A stretch of 40,809 nucleotides of DNA from Candidatus Altimarinota bacterium (GTDB lineage: Bacteria; Patescibacteriota; Gracilibacteria; BD1-5; UBA2023). Location of the stretch: contig JACMPX010000022.1 of assembly GCA_014377245.1 (NCBI GenBank), positions 1 to 40,809 on the forward strand, read 5' to 3'. How positions within the stretch are numbered: position 1 is the stretch's first letter; the number at the start of each line of letters is the position of its first letter. The translations under genes and the position numbers were made by a program. This document shows positions 10,055-33,657 of the stretch, one piece after another. The notes under the pieces were generated by a model that saw nothing but the letters and a program-made list of their open reading frames with translations, was not told the origin of the DNA and did no database searches.

Positions 10055-11128
10055 CTATGAAAGTCGCTCGCAACCACTCTTCGTGATCAGATAATCATCC
10101 TCTATACGGACTCCTATTTGTTCATCAGTTACATATATCCCAGGTTCGATCGTGACCACCATACCGGGGCTGAGGATAAGATCACGAGAACCAACATCAT
10201 GGACATCGAGTCCGAGAAAGTGGGAGGTACGATGTGGATAGTATTTTTTCGAGAGGAGTATGACTTCATCTTTATTTGCGTGCTGAGGGATGAGTCAGAG
10301 CTCATAGAGTTCTCTATTCATCGCTATTCTCATGATAGCCTCATATTCTGTGAGAGATATTCCTGGCTTGAGAGTGTTTTCAGCAATTTTTTTGACACGC
10401 TCTACAGCATCATAGACAGCGAGCTGTCGAGGAGAAAAACCCGAGACAGCAAATGTCCGAGTCATGTCACTCGCATATCCCATATACTCAGCTCCTGCAT
10501 CAATGAGGATGAGATCACCCAACTGGAGTTGTCTTGTATGAGCCGTATAATGGAGAATACAAGCATTGGGTCCTGACGCCACGATACTCGGGTATGCCTC
10601 AGTCAGATGATGAGAGCGAAAAACCCGAGCGATCTCCGCCTCAATCTCATATTCGTATATTCATGGTCGCATCATCGAGTGGATAGAGGTAAACGCCTCT
10701 TGAGAAACACTGATACCTTTTCGGATTTTATCTATTTCATAGGGGGTTTTGATAAGACGAAGTGAGTGGATGAAGGATTTCCAAGTTTGGTATCCTATCT
10801 CTTTTTTGCCTGATTGATATTGCTCTACTTCACTAATATCTCGAATATACTCTACACCTGATATATCTCTGAGCTCTGTATCTGAGAGCTTATCTGATCC
10901 CCAAATAATATCTATATCAGTTATAGGCTCTCGCCAGAGGATGACAGCATCTGAGAATATAGTCAAAACCAAACCAGGAACTGAGAGTCCTGTCAGGTAG
11001 AGAAAATCGGAATCTTGTCGAAACGGATAGTGAACATCTCCATTGCGGAGTTGTGCCGTGGCTCCAGTGATCGTAGTGAGCTGATCTGCTGGGAGATGAG
11101 AAATGAGGGTCGTGAGGTGAGGGTTCAT
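10055..11128 (-). CDS. pepP: Xaa-Pro aminopeptidase (M24B)
   Basis: A 357-residue metallopeptidase that removes an N-terminal residue before proline. The five metal ligands of the pita-bread fold can be seen: Asp in LILIDAGAEY, Asp in SDMTRTF, His in SHFLGLDVHD, Glu in TIEPGIYV and Glu in VRIEDDYL. The N-terminal domain has RQDSDFLYLTG, as in PepP. Two TGA codons code Gly (MMRP-Gly-IYEYE and YEL-Gly-LIPQH). The ATG at 11126-11128 gives the best-matching N-terminus; ATGs at 11147-11149 and 11171-11173 would add 7 or 15 residues of less typical sequence. Confidence 0.92.
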
Positions 11129-11223
11129 AAGAGTTATGATATGGATCATAGGATTTTTGCAAATTTTTTGCAAAGCAAAAAATATATATTGCTTTTAAGT
11201 ATCAAAAAAATAGACTCAGCGGT

Positions 11224-12210
11224 ATGCGTCAGACTCTATTTTTTATACTCTGCCTGTTTTTGACTTCTTGTAATCCATTTCAACACGTGGATACTAATAT
11301 AACAAATACTTCAATGAAAGAAATTCCTAAAAATGAAAGGCGAGAGTGGTAAATACGCAATATTCTGGGTAACTTCTGAATTGAAGATTATACACCGAAT
11401 ACAGAGTCACAGGGTATTTATGATTTCCTTTCGTCCAGTATTATGTCTTGTGAATGAAAAGAATATAGCGAATATCGCAGCTGTCTGATATGAAAACTGG
11501 AAACCTGGCGAACTCAAAAAATATATACATCTAAAACGGATGATCTAGTTCTTAGATTAATACAATCACTCAAATAAGAAATAGAACTAAGAGATATCTA
11601 TAGTATTGTAGATAGTGCTCCATATCTCCCTATGTAATAAACTGGTGAGTCGAATGCATGCAATATTATTGCGTCAAGAGATATAAGAAAACCATAATCC
11701 GAATATGGAGAATGGATAATTTTATCGTATTTGGATGCATATTCATCAATTATTATACCATTGAAGGAACCTGAAATTGTATATCTGCCTCAGGGAGATC
11801 TCCTCAAAAATAATGGCTGAACAGAGGAATTCCGATGACATGAGAATCCTTGTATTGGTGCTACATTTGGTCCAGATACTGGTAATATTTTCTATACTTG
11901 GCGTACTGATACGCTACAATTTTTTTGGGTCAAAGATGCAGATGGAGGAGGAAGTGGGGATTTTTCGTATACTATATTTTCCCACCCAATTGGTTCACGA
12001 GAATTCATACCTATTGGTCAGTTTTTTGCATGGAATGGCATTGTCCCATTTGTGCAAGATATCAATACTGGAGGTGGAGCATCGCAAATATGACATAGTA
12101 TTATTGAGGCTAAAAAAAATGAATTATTTCTCTACACTAAGTATACTGAAAATAAACGAACTGGTTCTATCAATACAATCAAAGAGATATTAACTATATA
12201 TATCCATTAA
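11224..12210 (+). pseudogene. Lipoprotein gene with five in-frame TAA codons
   Basis: The frame opens with a clean lipoprotein signal: MRQTLFFILCLFLTSC, lipobox LTSC with Cys16. It then meets TAA at 11350-11352, 11575-11577, 11635-11637, 11638-11640 and 11695-11697 before a final TAA at 12208-12210. Between them all 329 codons stay in one frame, with no TAG, and with about six TGA codons. The translation is protein-like throughout, for example FGPDTGNIFYTWRTDTLQFF and SHPIGSREFIPIGQFFAWNG late in the frame. Glycine would fit at each TAA (such as PM-x-x-TGES and RKP-x-SEYG). I read it as a secreted lipoprotein gene inactivated by TGA-to-TAA changes. The family is not recognised. It converges on the RlmD-like gene with a 3-base gap. 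Confidence 0.7.
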
Positions 12211-12213
12211 CTT

Positions 12214-13719
12214 TTATAATCGCTCGAGTCTCACGACTGTCTCGATATGATGCGTATGTGGGAACATATCCATCGGGGTGATATCAGAGATGCGATAGAG
12301 CGGGAGGATTTTGGTTTCTTTTTTGTCCTGAGGAGGAGTCTCACCCCCTGTCATCTCAGTAGCATCTATATCTATTGTCTGATGACTCATATCTCGGCCC
12401 AACATGATCGAGATATCTCGTACGAGAGTCGCTGGATTGCAGGAGACATAGATGATCTCACGAGCGCCAAATGCGAGAATATGTGGGATCGCATTCGCAT
12501 GGAGTCAGTCTCGTGGAGGATCAAGGACGATTATATCAGCTTTTCCATGCTCAGATGCGAATGCTTTGGCAAAGTCTTCGACTTTTGCATTCACGAATTC
12601 AACATTTGTAATACTATTTCTGTCCGAATTTTTATGCCCATCTTCACTCGAAGATGCCACCAGCTCTACAGAATACACTTTGGAAAATTGATGAGCGAGT
12701 AGTATCCCGATCGTACCTGTCCCTGCATAGAGATCGAGAAGTACTCCACCCTTATACTGGATGGAGTCGATCACTCTCTGATAGAGTTTCTCCGCTCCGA
12801 GCGTATTGACCTGAAAAAACGACTTCGGCTGTATCTCGAATGTGAGACCCAAGAGTTCGTCTGTGATCGTCGGCGATCCGTAGAGGAGGACCTGATTCCC
12901 TTGTACCACATCGGCTCGACTCGTGTTCTCGAGGAAGTAGACACTCGATATGCTCTCATATTTTTCGGACAGTTGTTGTACCATTTCTGTGAAAAATTGT
13001 TCTTTTGTTCCAATTATTCCCACTTTCTCTGATTCCCAGTTTCCATTTACTGAGAAGATGAGCATCGTCTCTCCAGTCTTCTTGGCCCTGCGAACCACAA
13101 GATGTCGCCAGAACCCGATCCCTGTCTTGGGATCATAAGTGGGAAGATCTGATCCACGAGCAAATATATCAATATCTCGAAATATCTGATTAGTCAACTC
13201 ATCTGCGAGCACACAATACCAACAATCCTCGATCCGATCGAATTGCCCCTGTACATGGAATCCAAAACGGTAGTTATCATGCATCCCCTCTCGTTCTGAG
13301 ATATACTTGCCCCATGAGAACTCCACCTTGTTTCGATAGTTCTCTGAGTCAGGAGACCTGATGATCGAATGCCAATTCGTCTCAGCAGTTTCAGTTTTGA
13401 GTGAGTGGAACGCCTCTATGATCTGTTGTTGCTTGATACCCAATTGTTTGTCATATGGTATCGGGAGCCACTTGCACCCACCATAGAGCTGCCACTCCGC
13501 TGGGATAGCTTTTTCGAGTGGAGATTTTTTCACGGTTCGATATATTTGAGCCTCAAGATGATTTTTTTTGGACTTGGTGATTCTCAGATCGACGATCGCA
13601 TCTGGGATGGCTCCACCTGAGATGATGATCTTGCGACCATCTGATGCTATTGCGAGTCCTGATCCTCCGAATATGAGCTTCTCGATCTTAATATTAGTGA
13701 TGATATCATGTTTTTTCAT
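12214..13719 (-). CDS. rlmD: 23S rRNA/tRNA (uracil-5-) methyltransferase, RlmD/TrmA family
   Basis: A 501-residue SAM-dependent methyltransferase. Residues about 1-60 form a TRAM domain. The SAM motif is LLDLYAGTGTIGI near 325, then IIVLDPPRDGL, with the Gly as TGA, and the catalytic Cys is in IIYVSCNPATL. The C-terminus has the usual ...MDMFPHTHHIETVVRLER. Only one Cys (LYGGCKW) is left of the N-terminal 4Fe-4S motif CxxxxxCGGC, and about 35 extra residues (around HQTIDIDATEMTGG) separate the catalytic Cys from the end. Whether the target is U1939, U747 or tRNA U54 cannot be decided from this sequence. The leader is structured (13742-13803). Confidence 0.9.
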
Positions 13720-29051: not shown

Positions 29052-32000
29052 ATGCCAAATCCTATTTTTTTTGACCCAACTATGAAACGTGTGTCTCGTG
29101 CCAAACGTATGATATTTTTTATAGTTACACTGTTTATTTTCGCCATATTTGTTTTTGGTTTGAGTCTCTTTCTCCATCCGATCCTGCCACTTCCACAGGT
29201 ATTGAGAGATATTACTACCCAACATGGATTGCATAGATCTCTTGTGCCTCCGATGATCTCAAAACAACCCATATATAGGAGAACTGCGTTACTAAATGGA
29301 ACTGGCAATAGTTCTCCAGAAAATAGAAATGTCTACATGTTTTGAGTGGAGTGGGACGATGCGAGCTTTGCATCACTCGAACAAAACAAAGCACAAATTG
29401 ATACATTGATTATGGAAGAATTGACCCTCTCAAACAGTGGAATGGCCATGATCTCTCCAGATAAGTTCAAACGGACCCAAGAGTATCTGACAAGTAATGA
29501 CCCTGATCTTCCCATACATGCTCTCATCAACAACTATAACTCTGTCAAAAATATCTGGGATACTGCTCTACTCTATATGACACTGAGTGATGAAACAAAA
29601 AGAAAGAATCTCGAAAAAGAACTTATAGATTTTGCAGTACTCCATAATTTGAGTGGGATAAATATCGACTTTGAGGAACTCGATAGTAAGACAATTCCAT
29701 ATTATCTGACATTTCTTGGAGAATTATGATCCCTACTCCATGCTGAAGGGAAGATTATATCAGTCAATGTACCACTTTCAAACGATAGCTTTGATTTACC
29801 TGAGATTGCCAATCGTGTAGACTTGATATTTCTCATGGCATATGATGAACACTGGTCGAGTGCCACACCAGGACCGATCGCTTCGCAGAACTGGATCATC
29901 GATGGAGTGATGACAGCAATGAGTAAGGTACCAAAAGAGAAACTGGTAGTCACTCTCGGAAACTATGGATACGACTGGACAATAGGACAAAAACAATCCA
30001 CCGCCCTAACTTTTCAAGAGGCTCACACTATTATGAGAGAATCGAGTGGGTCAATCGTATTTGATTCTGGAAGCCTCAATCCGATGTATTCATACACGGA
30101 TGAACAAAATAAAGAACACGAAGTCTGGTATCTCGATGCGGTTACAGCTTATAATACACTATCCAGTCTCGAGTCACTCGGAATCGAGAATATTTCACTC
30201 TGGCGTATGGGATCCGAGGATCCCAGTATATGGAAAATATTCAAAAAACCGGCAACGCAAGAAAATGCGAAAAACCTCGAAAATTTTGGCTATGGATATG
30301 AGATCGATTATGCTGGTAATGGTGAGTTCTACAAGCTGCAGAGTGAGCCAATATCCTGAAAAAGAAAACTCTCTTTCTCAGGAACCCTGATCACAGATGA
30401 AGTGATCACTACATTTCCTTTTCCATATACGATCGCTCGCTATGGAGAGGCTAAAAACAAGAAAATTGCACTTACCTTTGATGATGGTCCTGATGCCAAT
30501 TTTACACCGAAAATACTCGATGTTTTGAAACAAGAAAATATTCTAGGAACATTTTTTGTGATTGGAGAAAATGCTGAAAAATACCCACAAATCATACAAC
30601 GCATCTATACAGAATGACATACGCTTGGAAACCATAGTTTTTCTCATCCTGATCTATCCAAAGTTGGTCCCTTTCGTACTGACTTTGAGCTCGTATCTAC
30701 AGAACGTATCATTGAGAGTATTACTGGACACAAGACTATACTGTGGCGTCCACCATATGGTGTAGATATAGAACCAGAAACCCCGAATCAAGTACAACCA
30801 CTCATCAATTCCAGAAGTCTGGGATATATTACGGTAGGTATGAAAATCGATCCAAACGACTGGGCAAATCCTGGAGTAGACACGATCGTCGATAGAGTCA
30901 TCGAACAACTCCAGTCAGGACGGGGGAATATTGTACTCCTCCACGATGCTGGGGGTGATAGGAGCGAGACTATAGAGGCACTGCCAATACTGATAAAAAA
31001 ACTCAAAAATCTCGGGTATGAATTCATTGAATCAAGTGCACTACTATGAACTTCTCGCGACGATATTATGCCAATAGTTCAAGGAAATGATGCCTTATTT
31101 AAAGATATAAACCACACTTCTTTTTCTTTTATTATATTCATCCTCTGGTGTATATACTATATTTTCATGGCAACCTTAATTTTTGGGATCATACGACTCA
31201 TAGTTATTATGTTCTTTGCTTTTGCAGAGACGTACCATTTCACTCCTCGTCGTACTTATGATACTAGTGGGAAAATTTCAGTATCAGTAATTGTTCCTGC
31301 ATATAATGAAGCAAAGGTAATACAAAAAACTATTGATTCGCTCCTCCTGAACAATTACCCAAAATTTGATATCATCGTGGTGGACGATTGATCTACCGAT
31401 TTGACGAGCCACATAGTACAACAGGAATATGGAAACAATCAAAATATACGACTCTTTACACGAATGAATACCTGAAAAGGTGAGAGCATAAACTACGGCG
31501 TACAGCATACAAATGCTGATGTGGTTATCGTCATCGATGCTGATACGATCTTTGCGCCAGATACGATTCAGAAGCTCGCTCGACACTTTATAAATCCATC
31601 AGTCGGTGCCGTATCTGGAAATGTAGTAGTCTGAAATCGAGAGAATATCCTCACACATCTCCAAGCACTCGAATACAATACGAGTCAGAATCTAGATAGA
31701 CGGGCATATGATGCCATGAATACTATTACTGTAGTGCCTGGTGCTGTCTGAGCATGGAGAAGAAAGATACTTCTACAGCTCGGATGATTCTCAAAAGACA
31801 CCCTTGCCGAGGATAGTGATATGACCGTGAGCATTCTTCGTGCTGGATACTTGATCCAGCACGAAGAATATGCCTATGCTTATACCGAGGCACCCACAAA
31901 CTGGAGAGCTTTTGCGAAACAACGGTTTAGATGGGCATTCTGAGTTCTCCAAGTCACCTGGAAGCATATTGATGTCCTCTTCACTCCAAACACTCCAGTT

Positions 32001-32390
32001 GCACTCAGATTTTTTATATTTCCGAGTTTTATTATTTATCAGATTATAGTTCCTATTATTGCTCCTCTTTTTGATATCTTCACTATCATTATGCTCATAC
32101 TCAATACTCTGAGTTATTTCTTATATGGCTCAGGGATATACTTCGAAACACTCCTGCATGTTCTCTCTTACTCACTCATATTTCTCACACTTGATTTTAT
32201 TATCGCTTGTACCGCACTTACTTTTGAGAAAAATGAGAGCTGGAAGCTCCTTATCTATTTTTTACCGCAACGAGTATTATATCGATTTTTTATGTACTAT
32301 ATCAATCTTCGGGCCCTTTGGAGTGGAGTCAAATGAGGTATCATCGGGTGGGGAAAGCTCGAACGCAGTGGAACAGTGAATAGGAAATAA
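29052..32390 (+). CDS. Trifunctional GH18 hydrolase / NodB deacetylase / GT2 glycosyltransferase
   Basis: An unbroken 1112-residue frame with about 12 TGA codons read as Gly; reading them as stops breaks it into many pieces. A membrane segment lies at about 22-45. GH18 module, about 95-410: GINIDFEEL near 201-209 is the DxxDxDxE-type active site with the catalytic Glu, and LIFLMAYDEHW is typical. NodB deacetylase, about 470-665: TFDDGPD near 476, EGHTLGNHSFSH with the first Gly as TGA, RPPYG and LLHDAGG. Membrane segments follow near 690-730, then GT2, about 742-1000: SVIVPAYNEA, DADT, AEDSD and QRFRW. C-terminal membrane helices end it. It probably makes, deacetylates and trims a beta-linked GlcNAc-type polysaccharide and exports it. 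Confidence 0.9.
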
Positions 32391-32487: not shown

Positions 32488-33657
32488 ATGAGCCATAGTA
32501 GTTTTTTTGGAACATCTGATAAGGCAATATGAGTAAAAAGAATCGCAGTTTATTTGCTACTATTAGTAGTGTATGTCGTTATAGTCTCACTCACCATTAA
32601 GCAGGTATATGAGAATATTATCACACAATATGGTGCCTATACTCCTCTGAGTCCAGTATTGATAGTAAATCCTATATCGAGAAGAGCTACACCCACCACA
32701 ACGAATACTGTTGTAAACATATCGAATCGCGTCTACGCTTTCTGAGTAGAGTGGGATAACTCGACTCTGGAGTCTCTCACCCTCCATCTCGACCATATCG
32801 ATGAACTCATTATGGAAGAGCTCACTCTGAACCCTTCTGGCGTATCTCTCGTGAATCCTATCAAGTTCAAAAGGACGCAGGCATACCTCAGAAAAAATGC
32901 TCCAAATTTACCACTCCATGTTCTAATCAACAACCATAACCTGACGAATAATACCTGGGATACGAGTCTCCTCTACAGTAACTTGAGTGATACTACAAAG
33001 CGTAGAGATATCAAACTATGGCTATTGAACTTTGCTATCATAAATAATCTAGCAGGCATCAACATAGATTTTGAAGAGATTGATAAAAAGACGTATCCAT
33101 ACTATCTTATGTTTCTCAAAGAGCTCACTCTATCACTCAACGCATTATGAAAAAAGCTCACTGTAGATATTCCTATTTCTAATAGTCTATTTAACTTGCC
33201 TGAAATCGCAAAACGCGTCAATCTCATATTCCTAATGGCATATGATGAGCACTGGTCAGGGTCAACCTCAGGATCGATAGCATCTCATCTCTGGTTCGAC
33301 CATGGAATTCGATCTGCGGTCAATAGGGTCTCTCGAGATAAGCTCGTCGTGATACTAGGTAACTATTGATATGATTGGATAATCTGAGATAATACGGCAA
33401 AACCTCTCACAAATAGACAGGTGCAATCGATTATACAAAAGACAGGTGCAACACCCAGAATAGACCCAAAGACCTCAAATCCATTTTACTACTATCTCGA
33501 TGAGGCTCGTAGAGACCATGTAGTATGGTACCTCGATAATAGTACTATATATAAGTCACTCAACATTCTCAAAAATCTCGGTATAAAAAATGTTGCCCTA
33601 TGGAGACTCGGATCAGAGGATAGAGGCACATGGGAAATATTAAAGAATATAAAATAA
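32488..33657 (+). CDS. GH18-like hydrolase, paralogue of the preceding GH18 module
   Basis: A 389-residue protein with an N-terminal membrane segment (about 22-42) and a GH18 module. It is closely similar to the module in the gene just upstream: the pairs YAFGVEWD/YMFGVEWD, ELIMEELTLNPSGVSLVNP, GINIDFEEI and LIFLMAYDEHWSGST are shared. The catalytic Glu in DFEE is kept. It has no NodB or GT2 part, so this looks like a duplication of the first module. TGA codons code Gly in GNYGYDWIIGDN and elsewhere. It may cut or bind the same polysaccharide on the cell surface. An AT-rich stretch with TATAAT-like boxes directly precedes the ATG. Confidence 0.85.

Follow-up and report, generated by a model that had tools for sequence, protein, structure and literature searches.

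Five in-frame TAA codons in a code-25 bacterium: an AT-rich insertion that probably carries the remnant of an orphan gene

How should one read a frame that runs from an ATG to a final TAA, has the look of a lipoprotein gene at its start, and is interrupted on the way by five further TAA codons? This is the question raised by one locus in our window (by which we mean the whole stretch of DNA that was analysed, 40,809 nucleotides in length) from a Gracilibacteria-type genome. The initial annotation, made from the letters alone, saw here an otherwise perfect frame, either lost very recently through G-to-A changes or still read through at some level, and the elements of the frame that it named are indeed in the sequence: the ATG, the lipobox-like start, the five TAA (one tandem pair), the six TGA and the final TAA at 12208-12210, with no TAG in the frame. 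It was silent on the weak coding evidence in half of the frame, and on the segment as an apparently lineage-specific insertion. Our own answer, which we hold with reasonable confidence, is that an AT-rich insert in a code-25 lineage carries the remnant of an orphan gene, and that the TAA codons in it are genuine stops. An alternative within this reading is that a 3' piece of a gene has become attached to degenerate sequence; read-through is unsupported. The features on which the argument turns are collected in Table 1.

Table 1. Features of the locus, in coordinates of the window.
Feature	Position	Strand	Remarks
Xaa-Pro aminopeptidase type (PF00557 + PF05195; pepP)	10055..11173	-	flanking gene
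Promoter-like match TTGCAA-17-TATGAT	11145..11173	-	upstream of the aminopeptidase gene; consensus match only
Terminator-like inverted repeat (AAAAAATAGACTC / GACTCTATTTTTT)	11205..11244	both strands fold	arms 11205-11217 and 11232-11244; spans ATG 11224
Probable remnant of an orphan gene	11224..12210	+	328 codons plus stop; five internal TAA, six TGA (Gly); no homologue found
5' part with five TAA	11224..11697	+	TAA at 11350, 11575, 11635, 11638 (tandem with 11635) and 11695; signal-peptide-like start; weak coding signal
Clean 3' part	11698..12210	+	open over 170 codons, with strong coding signal; lacks an in-frame ATG, TTG at 11731 only
RNA (uracil-5-)-methyltransferase family (PF05958; trmA)	12214..13719	-	converges with the remnant, the two stop codons being 3 bases apart

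The source genome is a fragmented metagenome bin (54 contigs, 80% complete), of which about 228 kb, including the window, was sampled together with 246 kb of the congener G002. Codon models were trained on the 429 genes called in these 474 kb, with a separate AT-rich model, and in the coding tests each region was set against its dinucleotide shuffles. Comparison of the same locus in close relatives, which the initial annotation had proposed as a check, is informative: in three of the four congeners the two flanking genes adjoin and the segment is absent, with trmA and pepP separated by 58 bases in G002, by about 120 in G001 and by none in G003, where they abut, against about 1.04 kb in the source genome. 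The absence of the gene from the congeners rests on four genomes, in one of which (G004) the trmA/pepP locus is rearranged. The GC content of the insert is 34%, where most of the window has about 41%. To judge from this comparison, the segment looks like an AT-rich, species-specific insertion, and its gain in the source lineage is the simplest reading.

A code-25 genome can mislead its reader, in that TGA is a sense codon and TAA lies a single transition from a glycine codon. The reading of UGA as glycine has been published for Gracilibacteria and Absconditabacteria as genetic code 25 (PMC4032931, PMC8629427), and in the source genome, too, TGA lies inside conserved coding frames: the aminopeptidase and RNA methyltransferase genes of the window open at full length only with TGA read as a residue, and the same-genus orthologues of both also carry internal TGA. 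A glycine tRNA with anticodon UCA is absent among the tRNAs found in the bin, itself 80% complete, which holds one weak tRNA match near a contig end that was not called by ARAGORN. Each of the four congeners has one RF-1 domain match and the source bin none, a match that does not distinguish RF1 from RF2. Because the genome uses code 25, the six TGA of our frame encode residues, and the TAA are the only codons at issue. The likeness to code 25 as described for these groups, which takes in the in-frame TGA of conserved genes and the single RF-1-family release factor of the congeners, accounts for the TGA codons alone, however, and TAA is not reassigned. As an observation in its own right, TGA is the commonest glycine codon (194 of 538) in the AT-rich genes of the sampled stretches (GC below 37.5%), and makes up about 17% in all called genes.

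Is the frame coding sequence at all? Taken whole, it holds 5 stops versus 15.7 in the shuffles (p 0.003) and scores well by codon usage (p<0.001, mostly owed to the 3' half), so that the disabling changes sit inside a frame with coding signal, as they would in a pseudogene. The description of an otherwise perfect frame stands for its last 170 codons, which are clearly coding by three tests (codon score, periodicity and absence of stops, with 0 against 7.0 expected), each at p<0.001. It does not stand for the first 158, where the five stops are near chance (8.4-9.4 expected, p 0.07-0.14), no significant period-3 signal is seen (p 0.08-0.27) and the codon score is weak, at p 0.007-0.021 by segment. 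The reading frame is still the best of six there, and the score itself (0.10-0.14) falls short of that of real AT-rich genes (0.193, sd 0.089) by no more than roughly one standard deviation. The 5' part may thus have decayed from coding sequence, or it may have had no coding role in this frame at any time. The TGA codons in the clean 3' part suggest a source that likewise reads TGA as a residue; an AlphaFold model of this half from the single sequence was useless (mean pLDDT 38).

The beginning of the frame deserves a closer look. Its N-terminus is hydrophobic and signal-peptide-like, ending in a lipobox-like LTSC, and the candidate signal peptide with its lipobox cysteine, MRQTLFFILCLFLTSC, derives in part from a terminator-like T tract. 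The hairpin in question folds at -12.0 and -10.8 kcal/mol on the two strands (z about -3), and is omitted by a simple terminator scan whose loop limit it exceeds; in G002 and G001, hairpins of comparable or higher strength lie between the same two flanking genes. The sequence ahead of ATG 11224 is unremarkable, at the 14th percentile of real starts and the 69th of random ATGs, and promoter-like matches in the region are no more numerous than chance. Arguments from a Shine-Dalgarno sequence were dropped, the genus being without Shine-Dalgarno enrichment.

Searches for relatives of the frame, its stops masked by X, found none in 353 genomes of the class, 380 of the phylum, the genus or the genome itself, and none in GTDB contigs, viral contigs, phages and plasmids (tblastn), or Pfam. 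Weak matches from the class search (E 0.005-0.09) were discarded as shadow frames or unrelated genes on translation of eight of them, and matches to PDB sequences (E 0.05-0.65) were taken as chance. With no intact homologue in the collections searched, we therefore speak of a remnant-like frame, and not of a proven pseudogene of a known family.

Could it be, then, that the gene is confined to the 3' part, as a short orphan of 159 amino acids that is still live and starts at TTG 11731, with a noncoding 5' frame that is in frame by chance and a 'signal peptide' that comes from the terminator's T-rich arm? We think this unlikely, if well worth bearing in mind. The codon-model gene caller does call a gene at 11731-12210, and the near-chance stop numbers and non-significant periodicity of the 5' part, like the position of its ATG inside a terminator-like hairpin, are what one would expect on such an account; TTG, moreover, is the first codon in 54 of 428 called frames (counted by first-in-frame start), and the sequence ahead of TTG 11731 is at the 22nd percentile of real starts. 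Against this, the 3' part has no in-frame ATG, there is no + strand promoter match within 10900-12500, and the 5' part has its best codon score in exactly the frame that continues into the 3' part (p about 0.01). We regard the locus as an ordinary orphan-gene remnant, although we are not quite sure that its 3' part is no longer alive as a short gene.

If the frame is indeed the remnant of an orphan gene, an AT-rich segment of about 1 kb would have been inserted between the methyltransferase and aminopeptidase genes of a code-25 Gracilibacteria-type lineage, bringing with it, on the + strand, what is left of that gene, perhaps one for a lipoprotein. Its 3' 170 codons would remain intact, its 5' 158 codons would have degenerated around five genuine TAA stops, or would in part never have been coding, and the full-length protein would not be made. 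The stops themselves, the code in which TGA is glycine, the extra segment in comparison with the congeners, the coding character of the 3' half and the use of TAA as a stop elsewhere are directly shown; that the 5' half once coded, that the gene is dead and how its stops came about by mutation is inferred. Pseudogenes tend to acquire their in-frame stops through single transitions (PMC8629427), and in code 25 a TAA can be reached by one transition from TGA (Gly) as well as from CAA (Gln), the former being an extra route to nonsense mutation in this code; it is possible that the loss of the gene was in part driven by G-to-A changes of this kind (TGA Gly to TAA), as had been suggested.

The same annotation doubted that an old, uniformly decayed pseudogene of 329 codons would look like this, and the doubt was fair. 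In simulations with simple rates, five nonsense changes came without a frameshift with a probability of 0.095 at an indel:substitution ratio of 0.03, of 0.023 at 0.05 and of 0.003 at 0.1, where frameshifts in the real frame are unrecognisable without a homologue, and all five stops fell within the first 159 codons with a probability of about 0.03. The remnant reading has to live with these points: under uniform neutral decay one would expect frameshifts, and stops in the 3' half too; the 3' half retains the look of a working gene; the ancestral codons are not given by any homologue, and the 5' half may have been noncoding in this frame from the outset. The pattern of stops fits better if the 5' half lost constraint earlier than the 3' half, or was never fully coding. 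Lack of TAG among the stops was considered as a signal and set aside as not significant (all-TAA probability 0.11-0.17). Bacterial pseudogenes of lineage-specific genes are similar in having no homologue, a low GC content, several nonsense codons and a place between conserved genes; unlike them, our frame has stops in its 5' half only and no recognisable frameshift, and it belongs to a genome in which TGA is sense and one transition from TAA.

The possibility that the TAA codons stem from errors of consensus or assembly, the gene being intact in the cell, strikes us as very unlikely: the assembly is certainly fragmented and incomplete, and a single genome represents the species, but five separate errors in one gene would be needed where the conserved flanking genes are clean.

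Is TAA, then, a stop in this genome? Among the 35 genes of the window, 27 end in TAA and 8 in TAG, which makes TAA the main stop. Across 93 non-overlapping alignments (23,644 amino acids) of G002 frames with the sampled source stretches, no convincing internal TAA was found in conserved genes; 15 of the alignments hold a stop, placed by context and position, and not gene by gene, at gene ends, in the leaders that precede gene starts or in apparent antisense shadow frames. A scan for other interrupted frames returned mostly what look like neighbouring genes sharing a frame, and no tRNA with anticodon UUA is among those found in the 80% complete bin. The gene for RF1, prfA, was not found in the bin either, and we considered its absence as a sign of UAA recoding and rejected it. 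All four congeners have RF1, as do 23 of 27 genomes of the family (those without it are 78-80% complete), and the surroundings of prfA in G002 (5.5 kb searched either side, 7 kb in all) have only short scattered matches in the source bin, so that the whole prfA stretch seems absent and RF1 is missing because the bin is incomplete. We can be almost certain that the five TAA codons of our frame are true stops.

Continued reading of the gene, by suppression or context-dependent recoding at TAA, is consequently the proposal of the initial annotation that fares worst, and we give it hardly any credence, for although the frame goes on past its stops, as in programmed read-through or UAA reassignment, and prfA was not found in the bin, there are here five stops and not one, and the 80% complete bin yielded no suppressor tRNA and no other convincing gene with an internal TAA. 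A wider form of the idea, in which the source species, besides reading UGA as glycine, translates UAA in a context-dependent manner in some of its AT-rich orphan genes at the least, would mean that the lineage had altered the reading of a second stop codon; the evidence is against this, and we consider it extremely improbable.

Some smaller observations may be of use to others. At 338 called ATG starts (window plus sampled stretches), some of which may be miscalled as the longest frame was taken, there is no Shine-Dalgarno enrichment; G is scarce in the 18 bases ahead of them (2-11% per position), and 69% of the genes have T at position -1. The aminopeptidase gene of the congener G003 (G003:C35) has an in-frame TAA where the source species has a sense codon, about 20 bases from the contig end and likely an assembly error. 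Elsewhere in the window, the neighbouring genes at 29052-32390 and 32488-33657 have similar products, one congener protein matching the two of them, with 42% over about 420 residues for the second, and the longer gene may resemble a glycosidase-deacetylase-glycosyltransferase fusion.
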